Positions 4,373-39,963 of a DNA stretch of 64,000 bases are shown piece after piece. The stretch comes from Spirochaetota bacterium (GTDB taxonomy: Bacteria; Spirochaetota; Spirochaetia; Treponematales; Rectinemataceae), in contig JAKLFE010000005.1 in assembly GCA_022711355.1 (NCBI GenBank), forward strand, positions 1 through 64,000, in the 5' to 3' direction. Made by a program: the position numbers and the translations under genes. The notes under the pieces are model-generated. The model did no database searches. It saw nothing but the letters and a program-made list of their open reading frames with translations, and was not told the origin of the DNA. Positions within the stretch are counted from its first letter, which is position 1. Every line of letters begins with the position of its first letter.

Positions 4373-5467
4373 ATGATTCCCGACAAGGAGCAGCTCCGGC
4401 TGTTCGAGACCCTCACGCAGATCCCGGGCGTCGCCGCCCACGAGATGGCCGTCCGCGACTTCATGAAGGCCGAGCTGTCCAAGCACGCGGACGAGCTCGT
4501 CTACGACAACCTTGGCTCGGTCTTCGCGGTCAAGCGCTGCGGCGTGAAGGGCGCGCCCCGGCTCATGATGTCGGGCCACATGGACGAGGTCGGCTTCCTC
4601 GTCAAGCAGATCACGCCCAAGGGGCTCATCAGGATATTCCCGGTCGGCAGGACCTGGGAGCACGTGATCATGGCCCAGCGGGTCAAGGTCTACTCCGGCC
4701 AGACCGGCCTGGCCTACCCGGGAGCCGTAGCCTCCATCCCGCCGCACCTCCTCCCGGAGGACTCGGCGAAGCGCCTGCTCTCCGTCGACCAGATGCTGGT
4801 CGACATCGGGACGGAGAGCCGCGAGGAGGTGCTGTCCCTCGGGATCAGGCCCGGCGACATGATCGTCGTGGACGGCCCCTTCGTCCCCCTCCTGGGCGGC
4901 AAGAAGCTCCTGGCCAAGGCCTGGGACAACCGCTTCGGCTGCGCCCTCGCCGTCGACGTCCTCCGGGAGGTCGCCGCGGATAGGCTCGCCGTGGACCTCT
5001 ACATCGGCGCCACGGTGCAGGAGGAGTCGGGGCTCCGCGGGGCGCGCACCTCGGCCTTCGCCATCGAGCCCGACGTGGCGATCGTCTTCGAGTCCTCGGC
5101 CGCCAACGACAACCAGGGCGACGAGCTCGAGTTCGGCCAGCAGGGCAAGGGAGCCCTCATGCGCTTCATCGACCGGACCTCGATCACCCATCGCGGCCTG
5201 TTCCGCTACGCGGTGGGCCTGTGCGAGGAGCGGAAGATCCCCCACCAGTACTTCATGGCACTCGGGGGGACGGACTCCGGGGAGATCCACACCGCACGCT
5301 CGGGCTGCCCGTCCATGACCGTCGGGGTGCCCTCCCGCTATATCCACACGAACTCGAGCATCATGGACTACTCCGACTACGCCGCCGCGAAGGACTTCGC
5401 GCTGGCCTTCGTCCGGAGCCTCGACGCGGCCGCCTACCGCGACCGTATCCTTTCGTACAGCAGGTAA
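4373..5467 (+). CDS. M42 family metallo-aminopeptidase
   Basis: A 364-residue cytoplasmic peptidase of the M42 (glutamyl aminopeptidase/tetrahedral aminopeptidase) family, normally a dodecamer with two metal ions. Metal-site motifs are visible: SGHMDEVG, AWDNRFG, QEESGLRGA with the catalytic and ligand glutamates, and GGTDSGEIH near the C-terminus. AAGGAG precedes the ATG by a short spacer. It follows the peptide importer by 17 bases, which fits a role in trimming imported peptides. Substrate preference cannot be judged from sequence. Confidence 0.93.
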   Translation: MIPDKEQLRLFETLTQIPGVAAHEMAVRDFMKAELSKHADELVYDNLGSVFAVKRCGVKGAPRLMMSGHMDEVGFLVKQITPKGLIRIFPVGRTWEHVIMAQRVKVYSGQTGLAYPGAVASIPPHLLPEDSAKRLLSVDQMLVDIGTESREEVLSLGIRPGDMIVVDGPFVPLLGGKKLLAKAWDNRFGCALAVDVLREVAADRLAVDLYIGATVQEESGLRGARTSAFAIEPDVAIVFESSAANDNQGDELEFGQQGKGALMRFIDRTSITHRGLFRYAVGLCEERKIPHQYFMALGGTDSGEIHTARSGCPSMTVGVPSRYIHTNSSIMDYSDYAAAKDFALAFVRSLDAAAYRDRILSYSR

Positions 5468-5477
5468 GGGAGGAAGC

Positions 5478-6206
5478 ATGTACCTAGACCGCATCCGCTC
5501 GGGCCGCTACGCCGAGGAGACCCGCGGCGCCGAGGCCTTCATCGTCCCGGTGGGGAGCCTCGAGGCCCACGGGCCCCACTGCCCCCTCGGCACCGACTGC
5601 ATGATCCCCGAGCGGCTCTGCGCCGACCTCGAGGCCCGGCTCGGCGACCGCGTCGTCGTGGCGCCCCCGATCCACTACGGCTACACCCCCTCCCTCGCGG
5701 CCTTCCCGGGCACGGTCAGCATCGCCGCCGAGACCCTGATCTCGCTCTACGCCGAGGTCGGGCTCGGCCTCGCGAAGTGGGGGGCCAAGCGCGTCGTCTT
5801 CATGAACGGGCACGGGGGCAACATCGCCATGCTCTCCGTCGCCTGCGACCGGATCGGCGCGGCGGGGACGGTGGCGGCGGCGATATCGTACTGGCTCCAC
5901 TACTCCCGCGACATCCTCGGAGTCTGCGGGACCCAGGGCCACGCCGGCGAGGACGAGACCTCCCTCGTCCTCGCCCTCGACGAGTCCCTGGTCGAGATGG
6001 GCGCGGCCCGCCGCCACATGCGCAAGGGCTTCCTGAGCCCCCTCGCCGGCCCGGGCACCCTCGAGTCCCGCTTCCCCGAGGCCCTGAACGGGGATCCGGG
6101 AGCCGCGAGCGCCGACAAGGGCCGGCGGCTCTACGAGCTCATCCTCGAGCGCAACGTCCAGGCCATCGAGCGGATCATCGCGGGAGACTACGCGGACGAC
6201 CTGTGA
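5478..6206 (+). CDS. Creatininase family amidohydrolase
   Basis: A 242-residue metal-dependent amidohydrolase of the creatininase superfamily. Family motifs are present: PVGSLEAHGPHCPLGTD near the N-terminus, MNGHGGN in the middle, and GHAGEDETS for the further metal ligand. GGGAGG lies before the ATG and the gene begins 10 bases after the M42 peptidase, so the two are co-transcribed. The family covers creatininase, formamide hydrolases in riboflavin and mycofactocin pathways, and many uncharacterised members. The operon suggests a small peptide or amide substrate, but this is inference. Confidence 0.87.
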   Translation: MYLDRIRSGRYAEETRGAEAFIVPVGSLEAHGPHCPLGTDCMIPERLCADLEARLGDRVVVAPPIHYGYTPSLAAFPGTVSIAAETLISLYAEVGLGLAKWGAKRVVFMNGHGGNIAMLSVACDRIGAAGTVAAAISYWLHYSRDILGVCGTQGHAGEDETSLVLALDESLVEMGAARRHMRKGFLSPLAGPGTLESRFPEALNGDPGAASADKGRRLYELILERNVQAIERIIAGDYADDL

Positions 6207-7105: not shown

Positions 7106-8716
7106 CTATGAAGTCGCGTTCAAGGCCTTGAAGCTCTTCTTGTTATCGCGGTACAGGCTCTTGAAGACCTCGAACTGCCGCTCGTAGACCTCCCGGTTCC
7201 CGGCTCGAGGCTCGTAGGCGGCGGCGGCCGGCACGAGCTCGCCCGCCTCGGCCAGGGAGCCGATCGCGCCGAGGCCGGCCGCGCAGAGGAGGGCCGCCCC
7301 GAGGGCGCCCGCGTTCTGGGGGCTGGCCGTGGTCTCGACGGGCTCGCCGAGGATGTCGGCGAAGACGCGGGCGATCTGGGGCGAGCGGGCGCCCCCGCCC
7401 ACGAAGCGCAGGGGGCCGGCGACCGGGACCTTGCGCCGGATCGAATCGAGCTGCCAGCGGCTGTGGAAGGCCACGCCCTCGACCACGGCCCGAACCATGG
7501 CCCGCTTGCCCGTGCCCAGGCCGATGTTGAAGAAGACGCCGCGGGCGCAGGGGTCCTCGAAGGGGGAGCGGTTGCCGTGGAGCCAGGGCGCGAACACCAG
7601 GCCTCCCGAGCCGGCCGGAACCTCCTCCATCTTCTCGCTGAGGAAATCGAAGAGGGACTCGTAGCGGCGCTCGGGCTCCTCGGCCACGGTGCGGGCACCG
7701 AGGTAGATCCCGATCTCGTCGAGGGCGAGGTGGTCGCGGACCCACTCGAGGCACTTGCCCGCGGTCTCCTGCTCGGACATGTAGTTGTAGCGGCCTTCCA
7801 CCGCGCCGAGGACCGAGGCGATCATGGCGTCGGTGTCGACCCGGCGCCGGTCCGTGACCGCGGCGACCCAGCCGGAGGTGCCCATGTAGACGTGGGCCCG
7901 GTCGAGGCCGACGGCCCCCGAGCCCAGGGCGATGAGGGAGAGGTCCCCTCCCCCGCCGAACACGGGGGTCCCCGGCTCGAGGCCGAGGTCGGCGGCGGCC
8001 TTGGGCAGGAGGGGCCCCGCCAGGTCGGTCGCGCCGATCACCTCGGGCAGGATGCCCATGTCCACCTCGAAGAGGCGGCATAAAAGGGCGCTCCAGCCGT
8101 AATGGCCCGGCCTCGTGTCGTAGAGGAAGGTCGCGTTGGCCGAATCCGGCGTCATGCAGGCCCGGCCCGTGCAGCGCAGGACGAGGTACTCCTTGGCGTC
8201 GAGCCATTTCCTGGCGCGGGCGAAGGCCTCGGGCTCCTCGTCCCGGACCCAGTGGTGCTTCCACAGGGGATCCTTGGCGCTGGCCGAGGCCCCCCCCGTG
8301 ACCAGGAGGGAGGGCAGGAGCCTCGTCACGTCCATGCCCGCCACCTTGAGGCCCCGCTCGATGCCGCGGCGCTTCTGCTCGCCCGAGCGCTGGTCCATGT
8401 AGCTCATGGCGGGGCGGACGGGCAGGCCCTCGGCGTCGACCAGGATGAGCCCCTGCATCTGGCAGCAGAAGGCCATGCCGCGGATGGAGGAGGCCCGCAG
8501 CCCCGAGCGCTCGAGGGCCGCCCTCGTGGTGCGGCCCAGGGCCGCCCACCACTCCTCGACCTCCTGCTCTACCCCCCCGTTGGGAAGGAAGCGCAGGCCG
8601 TACTCCGCCGAGGCGCTCGCGACGAGCCGGGCCCCGGAGCTCTCGATGGCGTAGACGCAGGTCTTCACGCCGGTGGTTCCGAGGTCGCAGGCGAGGACGT
8701 GGAGGGCCTCGCTCAT
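7106..8716 (-). CDS. FGGY family carbohydrate kinase
   Basis: A 536-residue cytoplasmic kinase of the FGGY (xylulokinase/glycerol kinase) family, which phosphorylates sugars or polyols with ATP. The N-terminal phosphate-binding motif is ACDLGTTGVKT; a C-terminal ATP-site glycine-rich motif is FVGGGARSPQIARVFADIL. It is the last gene of a three-gene minus-strand operon and overlaps the upstream aldolase gene by 4 bases. In such sets the kinase makes a keto-sugar phosphate that the class II aldolase cleaves. The true substrate is unknown; xylulose- or fuculose-like sugars are only examples. Confidence 0.92.
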   Translation of the reverse strand: MSEALHVLACDLGTTGVKTCVYAIESSGARLVASASAEYGLRFLPNGGVEQEVEEWWAALGRTTRAALERSGLRASSIRGMAFCCQMQGLILVDAEGLPVRPAMSYMDQRSGEQKRRGIERGLKVAGMDVTRLLPSLLVTGGASASAKDPLWKHHWVRDEEPEAFARARKWLDAKEYLVLRCTGRACMTPDSANATFLYDTRPGHYGWSALLCRLFEVDMGILPEVIGATDLAGPLLPKAAADLGLEPGTPVFGGGGDLSLIALGSGAVGLDRAHVYMGTSGWVAAVTDRRRVDTDAMIASVLGAVEGRYNYMSEQETAGKCLEWVRDHLALDEIGIYLGARTVAEEPERRYESLFDFLSEKMEEVPAGSGGLVFAPWLHGNRSPFEDPCARGVFFNIGLGTGKRAMVRAVVEGVAFHSRWQLDSIRRKVPVAGPLRFVGGGARSPQIARVFADILGEPVETTASPQNAGALGAALLCAAGLGAIGSLAEAGELVPAAAAYEPRAGNREVYERQFEVFKSLYRDNKKSFKALNATS

Positions 8717-9390
8717 CGAGCATCCTCGCCGCCCTCGGGCACGCTCTTGCGCGAGTACTTGCGCAGGTAGACCTCGTGCATGAGCCGCGCCTCGAAGCGG
8801 TTGATGCCCTTGGCCCCGCCGAGGAACTCGGCCTCGACGAAGGCACGGCAGCCCTTCTCGACGATGCGGGCGCAGGTGAGGGCCTCGCCCATGCTGCGGC
8901 CGAGGGCCACGGCCCCGTGGTTGGCCAGGAGGACGGCCATCCGGCCCCGGAGCCCCTTGAGCGCGGTCCGGCGCATCTTCCCGGTCCCGGGCAGGGCGTA
9001 GTCGGCGACGCGGAGGCTCGGCCCCACGATCTGGGCGAGGTCGTCGAGGATGGGCGGCACCTCGCGCCTCGCCGCCGCCACGGTGGAGGCGCTCATCGAG
9101 TGGGTATGGATGACGGCGTTCACCTCGGGGCGGCTGCGGTATATCTCCCGGTGGAGGTCCTTCTCGGATGAGGGCTTGCCCCCCCTCGCCTCGCCGGTCT
9201 CGAGGTCGACAAGGACGATGTCCTCGGCCTTCATGCTCAGGTAGTCCGTGCCCGTCGGGGTGATGGCCATGAGGGAAGGGCCGAGGCGTATCGAGACGTT
9301 CCCCCAGGTCCCCGCGACCAGGTCCTCCTCGACGAGCTTCACGCCGGCGGCGCGCACGGCCTCCTTGGCCTCGAGCTCGGTCATGCTCAT
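8713..9390 (-). CDS. Class II aldolase/adducin family protein
   Basis: A 225-residue zinc-dependent aldolase of the fuculose-phosphate/ribulose-phosphate epimerase family. The zinc ligands show as HTHS near residue 98 and ANHG near 159; the N-terminal TWGNVSIR is also typical. It overlaps the kinase gene downstream and the aminotransferase gene upstream by 4 bases each, so all three are translated from one message. The likely job is retro-aldol cleavage of a phosphorylated sugar or sugar acid to a triose or glycolaldehyde phosphate. Confidence 0.92.
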   Translation of the reverse strand: MSMTELEAKEAVRAAGVKLVEEDLVAGTWGNVSIRLGPSLMAITPTGTDYLSMKAEDIVLVDLETGEARGGKPSSEKDLHREIYRSRPEVNAVIHTHSMSASTVAAARREVPPILDDLAQIVGPSLRVADYALPGTGKMRRTALKGLRGRMAVLLANHGAVALGRSMGEALTCARIVEKGCRAFVEAEFLGGAKGINRFEARLMHEVYLRKYSRKSVPEGGEDAR

Positions 9391-30116: not shown

Positions 30117-31973
30117 CTATTCAGACATTGGGCGAAGTCCACTCCCCTCGCCTCCGATCCCTTTGAGAACCAGGCGGATCTCCCCCTTCCGGCGCAGCAG
30201 GCCGTCGCGCTCCATCCGGTTGAGCAGGGGAATGATCCACTTGCGGGACAGGCCCGTCGCGGCCTTGGCCTCCTGGAGGCTGAGCTCGGCTCCCGCGGGA
30301 CGGGAGCCGAGCGCGGCTTCGGCCAAGGCCCGATAGGCCTTCGCGGAGAGGAAGAGCCGCCCGTCGAGGCTGACCGCCCTCCCCCGCTTGCACAGGAGCT
30401 CGAGCTCGCGCCGCAGGCCCTTCCCCCCTTCGGCGGCCTCGTCCAGGCCGCCGCGATCGGCGAGATCGAGGCGCTCGGCGAGCTCGAGGGCGGAGCGGGG
30501 CAGCTCGGGCAGGCCTTTGGCGGAGACGAGGTTTCCTCCCTCGAGGCGGAGGGCGAGCTCGGGACCGAGCCGCGCCAGGGCGGCGGCGCAGGCGGCGGCG
30601 GGCAGGCCGAGGCGGCTCGGGAGGCTCGCCGCGGGAAGGCCGCCGGCCTCGAGCGAAGCCTCCTTCAGGGCAGCCGCGACCGAAGCCCAGCGCCTGGGTG
30701 AGAAGGCCCAGGCGCCCGCCGCCTCGGCCCGGGGGATCGGGGCTGCCCCTGTTGCAAGCTCGAGGCAACCGGCCAGCTCGAGCTTGAAGGCCCGCAGGAT
30801 CCCGTCGAAGGGCAGTTCGTGTTGGCACGGCGAGGCGGGAAGGACTCCTAGGGCGGCGGCGGCCTCGCTCAGAGCGGCCTCCAGCCTCGAACGCTCCTCG
30901 CGCTCCCCGCCCCCCTCGGCCAGGAGGAAGCCCGCGGCGAGTATGTCGGCCCCTCCCTTCCTGAGGATGATGATCGGCTGCCCCTCGTAGGCGGCGAAAG
31001 GCTCCTCGGCCGCGACGCGGAGGAAGCCGGGAGTCCTGGCCGGCCAGATCCGGAGCTCCCGATAGGCGCTGCCGCAGGCGGCCTCCGCCGCGAGGCCGGC
31101 CCGGGGCTTGAAGCCAGCGTAGCGGGGATCGAGGGCGAGGTAGGCCGAACGGAGCTCCAGGATCCCGGCCCCGGGAGCGCAGAGGCAGTCCCCGCGCCCG
31201 ATCTCCCGCTTCGGGCGGGAGAGGCCGATGGCCACCCGGCTTCCGGGAGCCGCCGCCTCGACCTCGGCGCCGTAGCTCTGGAGGCTCCGGACGCGCAGAG
31301 CCTCGCCGGAGGGGAGGCGAAGGAGCTCCTGGCCGAGGCTCAGCGGCCCGCCGCGGAGGCTCCCCGCCACGACGAGGCCCGAGCCGCGCAAGGCGAAGGA
31401 GCGGTCGACGAAGAGGTAGGCCCCCCGGCTCGGGCTCGAGGTCGGGCGCCCCGATTCGGCCAGGCGCCCGAGGGAGGTGGCCAGGAGGGAGCGGAGCTCG
31501 GCGATGCCCCTCCCCCGCAGGGAGTCGACGGCCAGCCAGGGAGGCTCGGGCGCCTCGGGGCCATAGAGGGCGGCGAGCCTCGCGCAGGCATCGGCGGCGG
31601 CCGCGGCGGCGCGCCCGGGCGGGGCGAGGTCGGCCTTCGTGATCGCGAGGGCGAGTATGGGGGCGCCCAGGGCGCGCAGGACCTCGGCGTGCCGTCCCGT
31701 CTGCTCCATCCAGCCGTCGTCGGCGGCGACCACGAGGAGGGCCCCGTCGACGCCCCAGGCCCCCGCGACCATGTTGCGGATGTAGCGTTCGTGGCCGGGC
31801 ACGTCGATGACGCCGATGCTCTCCCCCCCCTCCACGAAGCGGGCGAAGCCGAGATCGGTCGTCATGCCCCGGGCCTTCTCCTCCGGCAGGCGGTCGGGAT
31901 CGGTCCCGGTCAGGGCGGCGACAAGGGCGCTCTTGCCGTGGTCGACGTGGCCGGCTGTCCCGACGACGGGCAC
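30117..31973 (-). CDS. selB: Selenocysteine-specific elongation factor SelB
   Basis: A 618-residue GTPase that carries Sec-tRNA to the ribosome and binds the SECIS hairpin in mRNA; the E. coli protein is 614 residues. The GTPase motifs are GTAGHVDHGKS, the switch region RGMTTDLGFA, DVPGHERYIRNM and ITKAD. EF-Tu-like domains 2 and 3 follow, and winged-helix repeats that bind the SECIS fill the last 250 residues or so. The start is a GTG two bases after the selA stop codon; longer readings overlap selA without similarity. Confidence 0.95.
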   Translation of the reverse strand: MPVVGTAGHVDHGKSALVAALTGTDPDRLPEEKARGMTTDLGFARFVEGGESIGVIDVPGHERYIRNMVAGAWGVDGALLVVAADDGWMEQTGRHAEVLRALGAPILALAITKADLAPPGRAAAAAADACARLAALYGPEAPEPPWLAVDSLRGRGIAELRSLLATSLGRLAESGRPTSSPSRGAYLFVDRSFALRGSGLVVAGSLRGGPLSLGQELLRLPSGEALRVRSLQSYGAEVEAAAPGSRVAIGLSRPKREIGRGDCLCAPGAGILELRSAYLALDPRYAGFKPRAGLAAEAACGSAYRELRIWPARTPGFLRVAAEEPFAAYEGQPIIILRKGGADILAAGFLLAEGGGEREERSRLEAALSEAAAALGVLPASPCQHELPFDGILRAFKLELAGCLELATGAAPIPRAEAAGAWAFSPRRWASVAAALKEASLEAGGLPAASLPSRLGLPAAACAAALARLGPELALRLEGGNLVSAKGLPELPRSALELAERLDLADRGGLDEAAEGGKGLRRELELLCKRGRAVSLDGRLFLSAKAYRALAEAALGSRPAGAELSLQEAKAATGLSRKWIIPLLNRMERDGLLRRKGEIRLVLKGIGGEGSGLRPMSE

Positions 31974-31975
31974 CC

Positions 31976-33370
31976 TCAGTCCCCCTGCGATTCCAGGCCC
32001 AGGGCCTCGCGGAGGAGGCGGGCCAGGAGGGCCGGCTCCTCGCCCGCGAGGGCGGCGAGGTCGACGAGGAGGCGCCCTTCCCGCATGGCCGGCACGAGAG
32101 GCGGGCTGCCCTCCCGGAGCCGCGCGGCCAGCTTGTCGGCCCCGCCGGCCGCCTCGACCAAGGAAGCCTCGGGCTCGAGAGCCAGGGAAGGGAATGTCTC
32201 GTCGGGGGAGCTGCCCCCGCCCGTCGCCCCGCTCGAGTCGACCAGCCTGACCGACTCCTTGGGCAGGCGGCGCCTGATCGCCTGGCCGAGGCGCGAGAGC
32301 TCCTCGCGCTCGGGGATCCGCGAGGCCCGGTCCTCGCCGTTGAGGGCGCGGACGAGGCGCTCCTCGAGGAGGCTCACGACGGTCTTGCCCGGCCTGAGGG
32401 CGCGGAAGAGGGGATCGCGGCCCATGGCCGAGACGAGCTCGGCCCGTCCCGCCGCTATCCCGGCCTGGGGCCCTCCCAGGAGCTTGTCGCCCGAGAAGCA
32501 GACCAGGGAGGCCCCGTCGCGGAGGGCGCGGCGGACGGGGAGCTCCCCCGGCAGGCCGGCCTCCATGCAGCCCGAGCCCTGGTCGTGGATCAGGGGGAGG
32601 CTCCGAGGCAGGGCGGCGGCGAGCTCGGCGGTCGAGGGCCGCGAGGCGAAGCCGCGCATCGCGAAGTTGGAGAGGTGGACCGAGAGGATGCAGGCCGTCT
32701 CCGGCCCGATCGCGTCGAGGTAGTCCCTGACCGTCGTCACGTTCGTCGTGCCTACCTCGACGAGCCTGGCTCCCGAGAGGGCGAGGATCTCCGGGATGCG
32801 GAAGCCCCCCCCGATCTGGATCTGCTCGCCCCGCGATACCAGGACCTCGCGGCCCGAGGCCAGGGCGCGGAGGGCCAGGAGGAGGGCGCCCGCGTTGTTG
32901 TTCAGGAGGATGGCCGACTCGGCCCCGGCTGCCAGGGCGGCGAGCTCGCAGGCGAAGTAGCCGCGCCGTCCCCGCTCCCCGCTCGCGAGGTCGAACTCGA
33001 GGTTGGAGTAGCCCGTGTTGAGCTCCGCCGCGGCCTCCCACTCGGCCCGCCCCAGGGGCGACCGGCCGAGGTTCGTGTGGAGGAGGACGCCCGTCCCGTT
33101 GAGGACCCGCCTCGTCCTCCGCCGGGCGAGGGCGGCGAGCCGGGAGGCGATGGCGGCCGCCAGGGCCGCCTCATCGAGGATGAGCTCCGGACCAGCGCCC
33201 CCGGCGGCCTCCGCCCCGGGTCGGGCGGCCCGGGCGCGGGCGTAGTCGACCTCGGCCCGGACGGAGCGGAGGACGAGGGGCCGCGACAGGATCGGGAAGA
33301 AGGCCGCTATCTCCGGCCGCTCGAGGAGGGCGCCGACGGCGGGGGGATGGGGGGAGTCGCTTTCTTTCAT
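31976..33370 (-). CDS. selA: L-seryl-tRNA(Sec) selenium transferase
   Basis: A 464-residue PLP enzyme that turns Ser-tRNA(Sec) into Sec-tRNA(Sec) using selenophosphate; E. coli SelA is 463 residues. The N-terminal domain (AVGALLERPEIAAFF) and the NGTGVLLHTNLGRSPLG motif match SelA, and the PLP lysine is K296 in CFSGDKLLGGPQAG. The ATG at 33370 lies one base after the tRNA-Sec 3' end, with no ribosome site. A longer frame through the tRNA gene gives residues unlike SelA. Translation may rely on leaderless or weak initiation. Confidence 0.95.
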   Translation of the reverse strand: MKESDSPHPPAVGALLERPEIAAFFPILSRPLVLRSVRAEVDYARARAARPGAEAAGGAGPELILDEAALAAAIASRLAALARRRTRRVLNGTGVLLHTNLGRSPLGRAEWEAAAELNTGYSNLEFDLASGERGRRGYFACELAALAAGAESAILLNNNAGALLLALRALASGREVLVSRGEQIQIGGGFRIPEILALSGARLVEVGTTNVTTVRDYLDAIGPETACILSVHLSNFAMRGFASRPSTAELAAALPRSLPLIHDQGSGCMEAGLPGELPVRRALRDGASLVCFSGDKLLGGPQAGIAAGRAELVSAMGRDPLFRALRPGKTVVSLLEERLVRALNGEDRASRIPEREELSRLGQAIRRRLPKESVRLVDSSGATGGGSSPDETFPSLALEPEASLVEAAGGADKLAARLREGSPPLVPAMREGRLLVDLAALAGEEPALLARLLREALGLESQGD

Positions 33371-33371
33371 A

Positions 33372-33460
33372 CGGAAGAGGCAGGAATCGGACCTGCCGCC
33401 GCGCGAGGCGCGGCCGACGGTTTTGAAGACCGCGAGAGCCACCAGGCCCCATCAGCTTCC
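33372..33460 (-). tRNA. selC: Selenocysteine tRNA (UCA anticodon)
   Basis: An 89-base tRNA on the minus strand. It begins GGAAG and ends CTTCC-G. The D arm has a 6-base stem, as usual for tRNA-Sec; the anticodon arm has loop CTTCAAA with anticodon TCA; the long variable arm has a perfect 7-base stem (GCCGCGC/GCGCGGC); the T arm has stem GCAGG/CCTGC. CCA is not encoded. In the acceptor stem the first five pairs are sound, but the next two positions (C-T and T-C) do not pair. It directly precedes selA and selB. Confidence 0.9.
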
Positions 33461-33465
33461 GCGCT

Positions 33466-33559: not shown

Positions 33560-34438
33560 TCAGCGCCAGGTATGGGTCACGTACTTGACCGCGGGATCCG
33601 CGGCGAGGACCTGGGAGGAGCCGTCGAAGTTGCTCACGGCCTTCCACCCGAGCATCTCGGAGAAGATCCACCACCAGGTCGTGGCGAGGACCCCGGAGTC
33701 GCAGTAGACGATGGTCTCCTTCTTGGGGTCGAGGCCGACCTTGAGGGCCATGGCCTCGAGCTCGGCCCTGGGCCGCACGAGGCCGTCGACCGTGATCCAG
33801 GTGTTGGGCAGGGGATAGGCCCCGGAGAAGTGGCCGGCCTGGGCCACGAAGGCCTGCTTGGTGACGCCGAAATAGCTGTCATAGGTCCGGGCGTCGACGA
33901 GCTGGGCGGTCTTGGCGCCGAGGACCTTGGCCTTGTCGGCGAAGAAGGCCGCGACGGGCTTGGCCGCGAAGCTCCCGCCCTTCTTGAAGGCGGCCTCGGT
34001 CTGGGCTGCCTTGCCGGCCTTGGCCCAGGCCGCGTAGCCCCCGTCGAGGAGGGAGACATTCTCGAGGCCGGCGTAGCGGAGGGTCCAGGCCACGCGGGTG
34101 GCCCAGGCGAAGCGCGAGCCGTCCGATTCGACGACGACCACGAGGGAGTCGGCCTTGACGCCGGCATCGGTCAGGAGGTCGGAGAGATCGTCCAGCTCGG
34201 GCAGCTCGTTGTTGATATCGCCCTTCTTCACGTAGAGGCCCGCTCCGATGACGTTGACCGCCCCGGGGACATGGCCGGCTTTGTAGTCCTCGACCTTGCG
34301 TACGTCCATGACGACGAGCCGGGGGTTCGAGAGGTTGGCCTCGAGCCAGGCCGCGTCGACCACGGGCGCGATGTCCCGAGCGAAGGCGGCCGGGGCCAGG
34401 CTCAGCAGGAGGCAGGACAGGATCAGCAGCTTCTTCAT
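33560..34438 (-). CDS. Exported rhodanese-like sulphurtransferase
   Basis: A 292-residue protein with a signal peptide (MKKLLILSCLLLSLAPAAFA) and two rhodanese domains. The first domain (about 22-140) lacks an obvious catalytic cysteine; the second has C246 in YCDSGVLATTWW, at the active-site loop. The arrangement resembles SseA-type thiosulphate or mercaptopyruvate sulphurtransferases, but it acts outside the cytoplasm. It starts 14 bases after the cytochrome gene with AAGGAG before the ATG, so the two are co-expressed. In Geobacter ext clusters a rhodanese, ExtH, accompanies multihaem cytochromes; this comparison is from memory. Confidence 0.9.
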   Translation of the reverse strand: MKKLLILSCLLLSLAPAAFARDIAPVVDAAWLEANLSNPRLVVMDVRKVEDYKAGHVPGAVNVIGAGLYVKKGDINNELPELDDLSDLLTDAGVKADSLVVVVESDGSRFAWATRVAWTLRYAGLENVSLLDGGYAAWAKAGKAAQTEAAFKKGGSFAAKPVAAFFADKAKVLGAKTAQLVDARTYDSYFGVTKQAFVAQAGHFSGAYPLPNTWITVDGLVRPRAELEAMALKVGLDPKKETIVYCDSGVLATTWWWIFSEMLGWKAVSNFDGSSQVLAADPAVKYVTHTWR

Positions 34439-34452
34439 GCGATTCTCCTTTT

Positions 34453-35670
34453 TCAGTAGCCGAAATCGAAGATGAGCTTCTTGTTCGCCGCGGAGCCGCC
34501 GGCGGGGAGGCCCTCCTCCGTGAGCAGGCCCCGCTTCTCCGCGTGGCAGACCGCGCAGTCCCTGGTGCGCTCCGTCCGCTTCTTCGTATTGTGGGGCACC
34601 GCGTCCCAGAGGTTGGGGAGCTCGTCGAAGGAGGCCTGGGCTATCCCGGCCTTCTCGAAGGTTCCCCGGACCGTCGGCACGAGGCGGAGGGTCGTCAGCT
34701 GCCCCGGCTTGCGGGGATTGTCCCCGAGGATGAACTGGGGGCTCGAGGTGGCGCCCTCGCCCAGGTGGCAGGAGGCGCAGCCGCGGTACTCGGCGGAGGA
34801 GTGGCAGGCCGAGCAGGAGACCTTGTCGCCGTGGTCGGCGTGGGCCTCCTTGGCCTTGTCGGTCTTCTCCGAGCCGCTCGGGTGGCAGGCCGCGCAGGAA
34901 GGCCGGCCCGCCACCTCGCGGCGCCCCGCGTAGGCGGTCCCGTCGCCGTGCATCTCGGCGGCCTTGTGGCAGTCGGAGCAGGACATGCCCTTCTGGTAGT
35001 GGACGTCGGCGTTGCCGCCGTACTCGCCGGTGAACTCGGGATAGACCCTTCCCCCGTGGCAGAGGGCGCAGGTCTTGGCCTCGTCCTTGCGGACGAACTT
35101 GTGCCCGGCCATGAGGCCGAGGTTCACCCCGGAGATGATCGGGCTCTTCACGTGGCAGTCGCCGCAGGAGGCGTGGCAGGAGCGGCAGGATTGCTCGAAG
35201 ACCTTGGCGTCGAAGGCCTTGGCCTCCTGGGGCGAGAAGCGGGGCCTGACCCCGTTCTTCATGCCGGCGTTCGTGTAGTGGAGGGATAGCTTGTAGTTCT
35301 TGGCTATCGGCTGGTGGCAGCTCGCGCAGGAGGCGAGGTCGTCGGAGGGGCGCTTCACGAGGCCCTGGTGGGCCCGCGCCTTGTCCGAGGCTCCCGGGTC
35401 GCCGCGGTGGCAGCTCGCGCAGCCGTTCTTGAGGTGGGGATCTGTGGCGAGGAGGGAGGCGTCGACGACGAATCCCTTATACAGCTCTTCCGCCCGGACC
35501 GGGGGAGGGGCGCCAGCTCAGCCCTCGCCCTCGGAAGACGCTATGACCGGGGGCACGAAGAGCGACTTCATGGCCGCCTCGTTCGCATGGCATTTCACGC
35601 AGGACTGCTCGGCGCCGTAGGCGCCGAGGCCCGCGAGCAGGGCCGCCGCGATCGCGATGGACTTCTTCAA
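34453..35670 (-). CDS. Multihaem cytochrome c, probable selenoprotein with Sec at codon 51
   Basis: The frame begins at TTG (35670-35668) with AAAGGAGGT 6 bases upstream and runs 406 codons to a TGA at 34453. The single interruption is TGA at codon 51 (35518-35520). Before it lie a signal peptide (MKKSIAIAAALLAGLGAYGA) and the first haem motif, CVKCH. After it lie ten more CxxCH motifs, the next at about residues 84-88, before any possible new start. The 3' part on its own would have no signal peptide and could not receive haem. A SECIS-like hairpin follows the TGA, and selC, selA and selB lie downstream. The protein resembles ExtKL-type multihaem cytochromes. A sequencing error or a pseudogene remains possible. 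Confidence 0.82.
35483..35520 (-). promoter_or_regulatory. SECIS-like hairpin at the in-frame UGA
   Basis: Counting the U of UGA as 1, positions 9-13 (CGCCC) pair with 26-30 (GGGCG), closing a 12-base loop that holds GGU at 21-23. A lower stem pairs AGCU at 3-6 with AGCU at 35-38. The apical GU-containing loop at this distance from the UGA is what SelB recognises in bacterial SECIS elements such as fdhF. The pairing was read by eye. Confidence 0.7.
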
Positions 35671-35701
35671 GGGCTACCTCCTTTCTCGAAAGATGCCTCG
35701 A

Positions 35702-35730
35702 AGTATAGCCTGGGGAATCACGGCTGTAAA
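35702..35730 (-). promoter_or_regulatory. Promoter of the cytochrome-rhodanese operon
   Basis: Minus-strand TTTACA (35725-35730) and TATACT (35702-35707) are 17 bases apart. They lie in an A/T-rich stretch between the divergent cytochrome and maturation genes. The start codon follows about 30 bases downstream. Confidence 0.75.
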
Positions 35731-35774
35731 ATATAAAAATATCGAATTTATCCTATATTGCGCGGCGACGATCG

Positions 35775-35803
35775 TTGACAGCCCCCGGGCCGGGCCGTAT
35801 TGT
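35775..35803 (+). promoter_or_regulatory. Promoter of the cytochrome c maturation genes
   Basis: TTGACA (35775-35780) and TATTGT (35798-35803) are 17 bases apart on the plus strand, ahead of the ATG at 35836. With the minus-strand promoter at 35702-35730 it forms a divergent pair that may share a regulator. Confidence 0.75.
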
Positions 35804-35835
35804 ACCCTGGTCCGAGACCCGTGCAGGAAGGCGCC

Positions 35836-36780
35836 ATGCAGAAGCTCCTCAGGTTCTTCACGTCGATGCGGCTCGCGATCGCCCTGATAGCCCTCCTCGC
35901 GGCGGGCAGCGCCCTCGCCACCGCCATACCCCAGGGCCTCGGCGAGGCCGACTACCTGGCGCGCTATGGAAGGCTCCTCGGCGCCGTCCTGGTCCAGGCG
36001 GGGATGGACCGCTATTTCGGCTCCCTCCTCTTCATCGGGCCGGCCTTCCTCTTCTTCGCGAACCTCGCCGCCTGCAGCGCCAGCCGCTTCGCGAGGGAGC
36101 TCCGCAAGAAGAGCCGGCGCCGCCACGGGGCGGACATCCTCCATTTCGGGCTCATGCTCCTCGTCGTCGGCTCGGTCCTCTCCTTCTCCGGCCGCCGGGA
36201 AGGCTCGGTTCGCCTGGCCCCGGGCGAATCGGCCGAGCTGCCCGACGGGAGGATCCTCCGGCTCGAGCGCTTCGAATACCTGAGCTACGAGGACGGGAGG
36301 CCGCGGGACTGGATCAGCAGCGTCTCGGTGCTCAAGGACGGCGAGGCCCAGATCGAGGGCTACGCCCTCCGCGTGAACCACCCGCTCAAGCTCGGCAAGC
36401 TCTCGCTCTACCAGGCCTCCCACTCCGCCGAGGCGGCCCTCCTCGTCCGGGACGCCGCGGGGAAGGAGAGCCTCCTCGCGCGCGGGCAGGAGCTCGAGTC
36501 GGGCGGCTCCCGGCTCTTCCTCATGACGCCCGACGACGGGGCGGGCAAGGCCGTCTTCCGGCTCGAGGGCCCCGAGGGAAGCGGGGCCCCCCGCGTGCTC
36601 AGGGCCGCCCCGGGCGAGAGCGCCGGCCCCTTCGCCCTCCTCGCCATACGAAGCCTCGAGCGCTCGGGCATCCAGGCGGTCGCCGATCCGGGCTACGCCC
36701 TCGTCGTGGCCGCCCTCCTCGTCATCTGCGCGGGGACCTTCCTCGCCTTCATCCAGAAGCTCGGAGATACGAAGCCATGA
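35836..36780 (+). CDS. ResB/Ccs1-like cytochrome c biogenesis protein
   Basis: A 314-residue membrane protein. Hydrophobic segments lie near residues 15-33, 60-85 and 105-122, with a large extracytoplasmic part and a last segment near 290-310, the ResB layout, though it is shorter than most ResB proteins (about 450-550). AGGAAG precedes the ATG at 35836; an upstream TTG is less likely. It shares an ATGA overlap with the next gene. ResB and ResC together export haem and attach it to CxxCH cytochromes outside the membrane. Confidence 0.85.
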   Translation: MQKLLRFFTSMRLAIALIALLAAGSALATAIPQGLGEADYLARYGRLLGAVLVQAGMDRYFGSLLFIGPAFLFFANLAACSASRFARELRKKSRRRHGADILHFGLMLLVVGSVLSFSGRREGSVRLAPGESAELPDGRILRLERFEYLSYEDGRPRDWISSVSVLKDGEAQIEGYALRVNHPLKLGKLSLYQASHSAEAALLVRDAAGKESLLARGQELESGGSRLFLMTPDDGAGKAVFRLEGPEGSGAPRVLRAAPGESAGPFALLAIRSLERSGIQAVADPGYALVVAALLVICAGTFLAFIQKLGDTKP

Positions 36781-37565
36781 ACGCCCTGCCCACGATCGCC
36801 TTCGCCCTGATCCTCGCCTCGGCAGCCCTGCAGGCCCTCTTCCTGCTCCGGCCCTCCAGGCGGGAGGATCGCGCCTCGAGCCGCCTCCTCCTGGCGGCGG
36901 CCGCCTCCCTCCTCGCCTGGTCGGTCGGCCGCTCCCTCGAGATCGGCTTCCCGGCCCTCACCGGGACCTTCGAGTCCCTCGCGTTCTACGCCCTGGCCCT
37001 CTGCCTCGTCTGCTTCGCCTATCGCGTCCAGCGGGCTCTGCCCTTCCTGCCCCCGGTCCAGTTCGGGGCCACGATCGTCGCGGCGTCTCTCCTCGCCATA
37101 GCCAGCTCGCCCATCGCGCCCAAACAGGCCCTCCCCCCGATCCCGGCCCTCCGCTCGGGCTGGCTCGCCCTCCACGTCGCCTTCTCCTTCGTCGGCGAGG
37201 CCTTCTTCGCGCTCTCCTTCGCGGCTGCCCTGGGCTGCCTCGCGGCCAAGGACGAATCGAGGCGGCTGGCCTACGACCGCCTGACCTACGGCGCCATCGC
37301 CGTGGGCTACCCGATCTTCACCGCGGGGGCCCTCGTGTTCGGGGCCATCTGGGCACAGCGGGCTTGGGGGACCTGGTGGTCCTGGGACCCCAAGGAGACC
37401 TGGGCCCTCGTGACCTGGCTCGTCTACACCTTCTACCTCCACCTCCGCTTCGTCCGGAGGCGGGGCGACCGGCTTGCCGCAATCGTCGCCGTGGTCGGCT
37501 TCCTCTGCACGGTCTTCACCTTCTTCGGGGTGAACTACCTCCTGCCGGGGCTCCACAGCTACTAG
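36777..37565 (+). CDS. CcsA/ResC-like haem lyase for cytochrome c
   Basis: A 262-residue multi-pass protein with the tryptophan-rich haem motif WGTWWSWDPKETWAL near residue 200, the hallmark of CcsA/ResC/CcmC proteins. Histidines that could ligate haem flank the motif region (one in ALHVAFSF and one in YTFYLHLRF). Starts in overlap with the ResB gene and ends alone. With its partner it makes up a System II cytochrome c maturation complex, fitting the eleven-haem cytochrome next door. Confidence 0.9.
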   Translation: MNALPTIAFALILASAALQALFLLRPSRREDRASSRLLLAAAASLLAWSVGRSLEIGFPALTGTFESLAFYALALCLVCFAYRVQRALPFLPPVQFGATIVAASLLAIASSPIAPKQALPPIPALRSGWLALHVAFSFVGEAFFALSFAAALGCLAAKDESRRLAYDRLTYGAIAVGYPIFTAGALVFGAIWAQRAWGTWWSWDPKETWALVTWLVYTFYLHLRFVRRRGDRLAAIVAVVGFLCTVFTFFGVNYLLPGLHSY

Positions 37566-37675
37566 GGTAGGGAAAGCCGCCACGTAGCGGCTGATCAGGA
37601 GGCAGATTCCGAAATTTCGCCTTGCCGGGACGTCCAGGATTATAGAATGAGGCTATCGGACGCCGACATATCGCT

Positions 37676-37734: not shown

Positions 37735-38841
37735 ATGACCCCCCCCTACCTTCCTATCGCAGCGGCGCTCGCGCTCGCGACCCTGCTCGGCCTGTCGTCG
37801 TGCCAGACTCCGACGGCCGAAGTCGAGGACGCTTACGCCTACCTCGTGACCTTCGATTCACAGGGCGCGGCGGTGGCGGCTTCGCCTTCGATGAAGGCCG
37901 TGCAGAGTCCGGCCGGCACGATCGACGAGCTTCCAGCGGCACCGGAGGATGATGGTAGATCATTCCTTGGCTGGTATACCGAGCCTAACGGCGGCGGCAC
38001 CCAATTCACCGCGGCAACTGCCGTAACGGGCGACCTTACCGTGTACGCGAACTTCACGATCGAAGTCATCATACGCCAGGAAGCCTACAGTATTACCTAC
38101 AACTTGAACGGGGGAACGAACGACGCGGGCAATCCCGCGACCCAAGATATCAGCGTGGCCTTGACCCTCGCGGCCCCGACGAGGGAGCGTTTCAGGTTCG
38201 GCGGATGGTATACGAGCTCAACACTGTCGGGGAGCGCGGTGACCGAGATCCCCGCGGGTTCGATCGAGCAGTACGGAAGCGTCGAGCTGTGGGCCAAATG
38301 GGTCTATGACGACAGGTATAATCTAGGCCTCGGCGACGTCGGCCCCGCCGGAGGCCGCATCTGCTACGTGAACCTGAACGCGAACGCCGACGGCTGGAAA
38401 TACCTCGAGCTGGCGCCCGACTCGACCGAATGGTCGGGTGTCCCCTTTGGCAGCTACCAGTGGCACATCTGGGGAGCCGATGGGGTGATCGTCGGCACGG
38501 GAGCCCAAAACACCCAGGATATAGTCTCGCAGCACAACAGCGCGCATTACATGTTCGGGATTGCGGCGAGGCTCTGTTCCGAACTTTCGTTCAACGGCTA
38601 TGACGACTGGTTCCTGCCCTCGATCGACGAGCTGACCTACGCCTATCTCAATGTATGGAAGCCCGGCAAGGGCATCCACTCTGAAGGCCGCTACTGGTCC
38701 TCGACCGAGAAGGAGCCGGCGGCGGATGGGACTAAAGAGTCAACATACTGCTATGCCTGCTATTTCGATACTGCTCTCGGATGCGCCGGGGTAATGGACA
38801 GCTTCATTAGCAGATACGTTCGTGCCATGCGGTCCTTCTGA
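37735..38841 (+). CDS. Lipoprotein with Listeria-Bacteroides repeats and DUF1566/Lcl-like domain
   Basis: A 368-residue exported lipoprotein. The lipobox is LGLSSC near residue 23. Two Listeria/Bacteroides-type (InlB B) repeats follow, with VTFDSQG, FLGWYTEPNGGG and LWAKWVYDDRY as landmarks. The last 160 or so residues (GLGDVGPAGGRICYVN to the end, with YDDWFLPSIDEL and YWSSTE) resemble the DUF1566/Lcl C-terminal domain. The domain pair is common on spirochaete surfaces, but its function is unknown. A related gene follows directly. Confidence 0.85.
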   Translation: MTPPYLPIAAALALATLLGLSSCQTPTAEVEDAYAYLVTFDSQGAAVAASPSMKAVQSPAGTIDELPAAPEDDGRSFLGWYTEPNGGGTQFTAATAVTGDLTVYANFTIEVIIRQEAYSITYNLNGGTNDAGNPATQDISVALTLAAPTRERFRFGGWYTSSTLSGSAVTEIPAGSIEQYGSVELWAKWVYDDRYNLGLGDVGPAGGRICYVNLNANADGWKYLELAPDSTEWSGVPFGSYQWHIWGADGVIVGTGAQNTQDIVSQHNSAHYMFGIAARLCSELSFNGYDDWFLPSIDELTYAYLNVWKPGKGIHSEGRYWSSTEKEPAADGTKESTYCYACYFDTALGCAGVMDSFISRYVRAMRSF

Positions 38842-38871
38842 CGCGATATGCCATCTCGAGGAGATTCAGCT

Positions 38872-39963
38872 ATGAAGCGATACAGAATGCCTGTCCTGCT
38901 CTCTTGCGCCCTCGTATGCTGGGCGCTTGCGGCCTGCGACAACGCCCTGATCGATAGCGACTACGCCTATGTCGTGACCTTCGATTCGCAGGGCGGGACC
39001 AGGGAGGCGAGCCCGCAGCTCATGGTGGTCGAGAAGCCCGCCACGATGATCGCGGCCCTCCCCTCGGCCCCCGCGAGGGAGGGTTGCAGCTTCGCCGGCT
39101 GGTACACGGAGAAATCGGGCCAAGGAACGCCCTTCACCGAGACCAGCCCCGTGTCGGATGACATACGGGTCTACGCCAAATGGAACGACGCGACCGGGGT
39201 CGTCGTGCGCACCGACGACTACTCGATCACCTATAACCTGGACGGGGGGACGAATGCGCCGGCGAACCCGGCCCTCTACAACCCGGGAACGGCGACCATC
39301 ACCCTCCAGGCTCCTACGAGGGGCGCCTGGCTCTTCGGCGGATGGTTCGATAACGCGAGCATGCAGGGGACCGCGGTCACCGAGATTCCCCTCGGCTCGA
39401 GGGGCGACGTGGTTCTCTGGGCGAAATGGACCTACAACGATACCTACAAGCTCAGAGTCGGCGACATAGGTCCCGCGGGGGGCAGGATATTCTACGTCAA
39501 TGGAAACGCGAACAGGGACGGCTGGAAATACATGGAAGCGTCGTGGATTAACGACCAAGCAATGCACCTGCCATGGGGCGGCGGAAACGTAGCATTATGG
39601 GGCGCCGATGGGCGCGCCATCGGCACGGGCAAGCAGAACACAGCCGAAATAATCGCCCAGGTCGGCCAAGGCGGAAATTACGCCGCGCGATGGTGCGAGG
39701 CGCTTTCAGTGAATGGGTACGACGATTGGTTCCTTCCTTCGGCGGACGAGATGGTCGAGGTCATAAGGGCTCTCTACGCGAAACAGTATAATTGGTTCAC
39801 GAAAGGGTATTACTATACATCGACCGAGTGTTCGGCCGAAGAATACCTTGTAGTCTGGTTCGATAACGATTCCACCGATCCAGGAAACGCTACCCTCTTG
39901 GATATGCAAAAATCATCTGACAATATCTCCAACCTGTACATTCGGCCCATCCGCTCCTTCTGA
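38872..39963 (+). CDS. Second related lipoprotein with the same domains
   Basis: A 363-residue paralogue of the previous protein. Lipobox WALAAC near residue 20; matching landmarks are VTFDSQGGT, FAGWYTEKSG, YNLDGGTN, LWAKWTYNDTY, GDIGPAGGRIFYVN and YDDWFLPSADEM. GAGGAG lies before the ATG at 38872, which is preferred to one 24 bases upstream. The gene follows the first after 30 bases. Parts of both genes use more A/T-rich codons than the surroundings, suggesting separate history. The two probably arose by duplication. Confidence 0.85.
   Translation: MKRYRMPVLLSCALVCWALAACDNALIDSDYAYVVTFDSQGGTREASPQLMVVEKPATMIAALPSAPAREGCSFAGWYTEKSGQGTPFTETSPVSDDIRVYAKWNDATGVVVRTDDYSITYNLDGGTNAPANPALYNPGTATITLQAPTRGAWLFGGWFDNASMQGTAVTEIPLGSRGDVVLWAKWTYNDTYKLRVGDIGPAGGRIFYVNGNANRDGWKYMEASWINDQAMHLPWGGGNVALWGADGRAIGTGKQNTAEIIAQVGQGGNYAARWCEALSVNGYDDWFLPSADEMVEVIRALYAKQYNWFTKGYYYTSTECSAEEYLVVWFDNDSTDPGNATLLDMQKSSDNISNLYIRPIRSF

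Follow-up and report, generated by a model that had tools for sequence, protein, structure and literature searches.

Few selenoprotein cytochromes are known. A 2026 review that counts 119 selenoprotein families and subfamilies has, in its accessible parts, two cytochromes among them, ExtKL and TIGR04315; its table also holds a GSU2204-type CXXCH beta-barrel protein, and the selenocysteine (Sec) form of TIGR04315 is given as annotated in GenBank (PMC13188914). TIGR04315, the octahaem tetrathionate reductase family, resembles the cytochrome described here in being multihaem, in bearing the name of a sulfur compound and in having one Sec listed (PMC13188914, Table 1, in the accessible part of that source). 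The likeness of ExtKL lies in a multihaem cytochrome with a predicted Sec and in a rhodanese-like gene in its operon, going by the accessible portions of the papers concerned (PMC5877670, PMC1914089, PMC6148476). ExtM and ExtN (NF040943 and NF040967) belong to the same Geobacter operon as ExtKL, and their haem region is distantly homologous to that of our cytochrome.

The cytochrome considered here forms a family separate from these, with a fixed motif, GxGU[A/G], and a wide spread. Its gene lies in a window of 64,000 nucleotides (the whole stretch of DNA that was analysed) from a member of the Spirochaetota, and the features around it are collected in the table below. The earlier note on this DNA had described one continuous frame with a TTG start, a strong ribosome site, a signal peptide, one haem motif ahead of an in-frame UGA at codon 51 and ten CxxCH motifs after it. 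All of this is borne out, on the minus strand, which that note had not given: the gene comprises 405 codons, from a TTG at 35670 with a GGAGG ribosome site closely 5' of it to its own TGA at 34453, the leader is signal-peptide-like by inspection, and the protein has eleven CxxCH motifs, one before the UGA and ten after. Haem motif 1 occupies residues 24-28 and haem motif 2 residues 84-88, and the first in-frame ATG, GTG or TTG past the UGA in the list of open reading frames is a GTG at 35358, codon 105; haem motif 2 thus precedes any new start, as had been claimed. Eleven CxxCH motifs were also found in all ten sequences counted in the alignment and in all twelve members from a draw of the window's phylum, and nine to eleven in 13 distant members. 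From its sequence, and from the cytochrome c haem-attachment genes (ResB and CcsA) that run divergently from it, the gene product is supported as a putative exported multihaem c-type cytochrome.

Features of the window at and around the predicted selenocysteine-containing cytochrome gene
Feature	Position	Strand	Remarks
selB	30117..31973	minus	GTG start (inspection); TIGR00475 219 bits, below the 242 cut-off; PF09107 SelB winged helix above cut-off
selA	31976..33370	minus	TIGR00474, 406 bits, cut-off 267.9; ATG 33370 right after tRNA-Sec (start by inspection)
tRNA-Sec	33371..33461	minus	anticodon tca; RF01852, 61.9 bits, gathering 47
Two-domain rhodanese	33560..34438	minus	PF00581; YCDSG motif, signal-like leader (inspection)
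Predicted Sec-containing eleven-haem cytochrome c gene	34453..35670	minus	TTG start, UGA (putative Sec) at codon 51, TGA stop
Candidate bacterial SECIS stem-loop	35489..35506	minus	6 + 6 nt stem, 6-nt loop, invariant GU
In-frame UGA, codon 51, probably read as Sec	35518..35520	minus	GEGUAG motif
Signal-peptide-like leader	35611..35670	minus	KK, hydrophobic stretch, AYGA (inspection)
ResB, cytochrome c haem-attachment system II	35800..36780	plus	PF05140; divergent
CcsA-type cytochrome c assembly protein	36780..37565	plus	PF01578; divergent; start approximate, domain from ~36966

A contig scan for relatives gave 113 matches, from which 80 loci were kept and aligned with the window gene (81 sequences). 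At the column of codon 51, 69 of the 81 have TGA, two have proline, two were scored as cysteine and eight do not reach the column; the cysteine score of L080 is discounted, this being a fragment whose match begins at residue 77. A chance frame is excluded because TGA stands in the same column in 69 of 81 sequences and homology spans it, and the single product across the UGA that the earlier note had argued for is matched by homology continuous on both sides of codon 51. That note had also reasoned that a sense codon other than those for Cys or Sec in homologues would speak against a selenoprotein. Such a codon does occur, as proline in L073 and L079, but the same assemblies also hold UGA copies (L051 and L018). 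The two proline forms (L073, positions 8061-9209; L079, positions 8010-9209) are paralogues and may have a Sec-free sister function.

A profile search of 392 genomes from the window's phylum found the gene in 12, with exactly one in-frame TGA in each, and three of these retain the UGA at only 32-36% identity. Ten distant members came from a draw of 377 genomes of the phylum to which the L082 genome belongs; TGA is present in seven and cysteine in three, which read GGGGCGGS, GECCGGE and GECCGGS at this place. The Cys forms are those of L082/L113 (one genome), L114 and L118. L114 and L118 (G463 and G628) read GECCGG, a second adjacent cysteine replacing the glycine of GEGU. UGA forms are present in the tree on either side of its midpoint root, and Cys forms at two separate points; the states were mapped by hand, on a tree with an arbitrary root and some long branches. 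Spirochaetota are the rows nearest to the window gene. Carriers extend over Spirochaetota, Syntrophaceae/Smithella, Geobacter kin, some MAGs labelled Bacillota and more distant lineages, and include a named strain, Geobacter sp. OR-1. The earlier note had suggested that homologues be searched for Sec or Cys at this column; UGA is kept in most of the aligned sequences and cysteine stands there in three distant relatives, and UGA 51 is very probably translated as selenocysteine. One could envision instead that the UGA is a genuine stop, with one short peptide bearing a single haem and another product made from the 3' part, or that the gene is broken; this would agree with the standard reading of UGA and with the use of TGA as the gene's own terminator, but it is opposed by the exact position of the UGA across the alignment, by homology on both sides, by the lack of a new start in the window gene between the UGA and codon 105 and by the Cys forms of distant relatives.

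Sequences just downstream of the codon bear on the same question. A bacterial SECIS is a hairpin lying just past the UGA, with a G in its apical loop. The candidate found here has a stem that starts 14 nt past the U of the UGA. Standard pairs fill 370 of the 402 pair cells in 67 distinct hairpins (L071, in which the hairpin is shifted, was left out of this count), as against 37-67% once one side is slid; at least five of the six pairs can form in 66 of the 67 distinct sequences, L023 being the exception, and loop positions G22 and U23 are invariant (67/67). Codon choice is constrained over the same stretch: Pro55 is encoded by CCT in 64 of 67 sequences (entropy 0.33; the median over 12 conserved prolines is 1.71). 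In synonymous constraint Val58 heads the residues of its kind, as does Glu61, and Pro56 comes second. Gly53, not being part of the stem, comes 20th of 22; Gly50, ahead of the UGA, is also codon-constrained. Three distant members have a hairpin at the same place with a different sequence. A hairpin and codon constraint directly after the UGA are again difficult to reconcile with a genuine stop.

The candidate thus draws on pairing, the GU loop and codon constraint, and is weak in covariation and in its stability in the window. Fold energy is not separated from that of shuffles in three of six sequences (z -0.09, 0.40 and -0.23; the window, L071 and L031 are affected), and the predicted minimum-energy fold of the window's 39-nt hairpin, as stable as its shuffles, differs from the proposed one. 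One stem pair is mismatched in 20 of 67 sequences, as C.C in the window, and a bulged register repairs 19 of them. Covariation was computed on 32 hand-picked hairpins of the 67. The true register scores 0.082 and has double changes at two of six pairs, values reached by 1 and 6 of 500 column shuffles, respectively; since scores of up to 0.079 are obtained when the register is slid, and one such register has more double changes (8 cells versus 3), covariation adds little.

The genes for Sec insertion are close at hand. tRNA-Sec, selA and selB, which the earlier note had not mentioned, begin 1 kb downstream of the cytochrome gene, and selD is present on another contig of the same genome. With this further point against it, we regard a genuine stop at codon 51 as very improbable. 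In the phylum draw of 392 genomes, 92 have selA, namely all 12 with the cytochrome gene and 80 of the 380 without it (Fisher p 1.6e-8, relatedness not corrected), and in 8 of the 12, the window's own genome included, selA lies within 5.4 kb on the same contig. For 50 of the 80 loci the 50 source genomes were checked (49 with UGA forms and one, that of L082, with a Cys form), and selA was found in 46 of the 49; it was missing from three UGA genomes and from the Cys genome. Distant forms come from 13 genomes: nine of the ten with UGA have selA (three of these also belong to the 12 above, and one, G708, has it only as two pieces under the cut-off), as does one of the three with Cys. The UGA genomes without selA (3/49 and 1/10) are possibly incomplete assemblies. 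G628 keeps selA despite its Cys copy of the cytochrome. Formate dehydrogenase alpha (TIGR01591) was not found in the window's own genome, G000, which is 79% complete, and the Sec machinery may therefore serve few selenoproteins there. Taking the predicted identity of the product as a periplasmic eleven-haem cytochrome together with Sec insertion at UGA 51, and excluding the substrate from the figure, we put the probability of this reading, as it can be judged from sequence, at roughly 0.93.

A standard-code annotation would be expected to end such a gene at the UGA or to start it late, so that it is easily missed. The Sec eleven-haem cytochrome probably represents a new selenoprotein family. 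It looks new because no NCBIfam match reaches its cut-off in the 23 members that were scored (the window, L017, L082 and 20 more) and because the GxGU family is absent from the 119-family table in the accessible part of PMC13188914. All of those scores fall far short of the cut-offs, the best being 52 of 192 bits, for a DmsE-family cytochrome in L104; for the remaining 32 of 55 members, E-values alone were obtained. The only selenoprotein cytochromes named in the accessible parts of five further papers (PMC9312934, PMC1914089, PMC5877670, PMC6148476, PMC2702500) are ExtKL and a "cytochrome c family protein". A search of full-text literature, with subscription papers mostly excluded, gave no report of a Sec eleven-haem family among the matches listed. 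The "cytochrome c family protein" of the five papers is presumably ExtKL. A first structure model had a pLDDT of 71.5 and a second, made with distant members, 85.2, and Foldseek found for either model no solved structure at E < 0.001, the best being hydroxylamine oxidoreductase at E 0.47. A viral structure library gave no match at E < 0.001, and a sequence search of the PDB returned seven weak matches of 50-80 residues each.

Most GxGU cytochrome genes have a rhodanese gene next to them, and in the window's phylum the genes for Sec insertion often adjoin them as well. Rhodanese adjacency was counted at 64 loci, four of the 68 UGA loci being too short. A rhodanese homologue lies directly downstream of the cytochrome at 45 of them by a strict rule, and at eight further loci an adjacent one was recognized by eye (upstream in three), which brings the count to 53 of 64 and leaves 11 without one. 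Other genes recur no more than 9 kb away at part of the loci: a multihaem cytochrome at 19, a second rhodanese at 16 and a multihaem-cytochrome b561 fusion at 17, or else NrfD at 12, a TtrB/NrfC-like FeS protein at 11 and an in-frame c7 extension at 11. Clusters of NrfD, FeS and c7 stand immediately before the Sec cytochrome in L046, L058, L063, L064, L065, L068 and L074. Domains and reading frame of the neighbour clusters were checked on one representative each, those of NrfD/FeS/c7 in L064, where positions 4419-5931 hold, after the NrfD and FeS genes, a cytochrome that is extended in frame at its N terminus by a further multihaem part of the c7 type. Both the NrfD/FeS/c7 and the multihaem-cytochrome b561 modules are possible feeds of quinol electrons to the Sec cytochrome.

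Other neighbours are less general. A FAD_binding_2 flavoprotein, fumarate-reductase-like and with a TAT signal, and a small c3 cytochrome adjoin the gene in L024, L029, L038, L039, L045 and L047 (one representative of each of the two clusters was scanned). In the window, the open reading frames at 35674-36423 and 36693-37583 were considered as upstream genes and rejected, being antisense to ResB and CcsA on the plus strand. Beyond these, tandem genes on the plus strand (37735-38841 and 38848-39963) have Listeria-Bacteroides repeat (Flg_new) domains and weak Lcl_C-like matches. Neither the cytochrome nor the rhodanese had a match in a defence library.

Since its usual partner is a rhodanese, the cytochrome is most simply read as one that handles sulfane sulfur or selenium. 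We tentatively propose a periplasmic, quinol-fed cytochrome that would reduce sulfane sulfur or selenium together with the rhodanese, the substrate being guessed from the neighbouring genes. In this scheme, the SelA/SelB/tRNA-Sec set encoded downstream would insert Sec at UGA 51 by way of the SECIS hairpin. Sulfane sulfur derived from thiosulfate or polysulfide, or else selenium, would attach to the cysteine of the rhodanese as a persulfide or perselenide and would then be passed to the selenolate of the cytochrome. Quinol electrons would travel through the haems to Sec, and the haems would reduce the selenolate-bound sulfur or selenium to sulfide or selenide, so that the cytochrome would be the terminal catalyst of an electron chain in the periplasm. 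Some details of the protein suggest where such a reaction might take place. Nine histidines outside the haem motifs (79, 101, 131, 190, 224, 241, 277, 280 and 360) are invariant in 62 diverse sequences, and the other strongly conserved candidate ligands are Sec/Cys and Met229, each in 60 of 62. As there are nine such histidines for eleven haems, a haem might lack a second histidine, and Sec is a candidate to take that position. It might even be imagined that the selenolate is the sixth ligand of a catalytic haem, or sits directly at it, in a haem-selenolate sulfur/selenium reductase; this last step is doubtful, and we know of no precedent for an active site of that kind.

Two other roles deserve consideration. 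The cytochrome might reduce selenite or tellurite, either to detoxify it or to supply Sec, in the manner of the Geobacter ext operon and not in sulfur respiration. The distant relationship of its haem part to ExtM/ExtN and the closeness of selA in 8 of 12 genomes would fit such a role, as would the rhodanese-like gene that the ext operon also contains, according to the accessible part of PMC5877670. However, ExtKL was not found over its cut-off in the six carrier genomes tested, no ext gene over cut-off occurs among the scanned neighbour-cluster representatives (the ExtI porin lying outside that search), close linkage to selA is confined to the window's phylum among the loci examined, and at some of the Syntrophaceae-type loci possible quinol modules are found instead; a selenite role thus appears somewhat unlikely. 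The electrons could also flow the other way, from the oxidation of sulfide or sulfane sulfur to extracellular or interspecies electron transfer. Eleven haems and the occurrence in organisms of the Smithella and Geobacter type would suit this direction, and Cys-ligated haems are known in sulfur-oxidising cytochromes, but the NrfD/FeS module of L064 is most like tetrathionate reductase TtrB and nitrite reductase NrfC, and modules of this type usually oxidise quinol, so that we find oxidation rather improbable. Reduction of sulfane sulfur or selenium in concert with the rhodanese, tentative as it is, points to the cytochrome as a specific candidate where a periplasmic step of sulfur or selenium metabolism is sought in anaerobes that live in syntrophy or reduce metals.

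How does the Sec cytochrome relate to the systems already described? The idea that it might be of the ExtKL kind, put forward in the earlier note, did not survive comparison. NF040886, the ExtKL family (cut-off 250 bits), has no match to the window protein at E 0.01 and is absent from the families matched by the 55 scanned members at E 0.001. The reference ExtKL of L107, found by its model with 614 bits, has five haems before a Sec that lies near residue 325 in the context PDGUPTPN, whereas the window protein has eleven haems and its putative Sec at residue 51; the best local similarity between the two is merely 23 bits. Filing under ExtKL was ruled out by haem number, Sec site and profile score. 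TIGR04315, for its part, is unmatched by the window protein at E 0.01 and is matched by one of the 55 members, at E 0.0009. As ExtKL and TIGR04315 are multihaem and Sec forms of both exist (PMC13188914, Table 1, accessible part), it might be suggested that the present cytochrome belongs to one or the other of these listed selenoproteins; in view of the profile results and of the different haems and Sec site of ExtKL, we consider this extremely improbable.

A distant kinship of the haem part is seen instead with neighbours of ExtKL. In alignment with the multihaem open reading frame that follows extKL in L107, 67 of 268 positions are identical, and the commonest matches in the 55-member scan (E 0.001), weak for ExtM and ExtN, were ExtM (45), ExtO (43) and ExtN (43). 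Against the curated cut-offs of ExtM and ExtN, though, the window protein falls far short (34 of 800 and 27 of 200 bits), and the N-terminal haem and GxGU loop of the Sec cytochrome lie outside the part that aligns with them. A different analogy is offered by the quinol-linked reductases of the Psr/Ttr/Nrf type, with which seven of the Sec cytochrome loci share NrfD and an FeS protein. By this analogy we infer that the Sec multihaem cytochrome may act there as the terminal subunit, in the place taken by the molybdoenzyme or by NrfA in the Psr/Ttr/Nrf systems.
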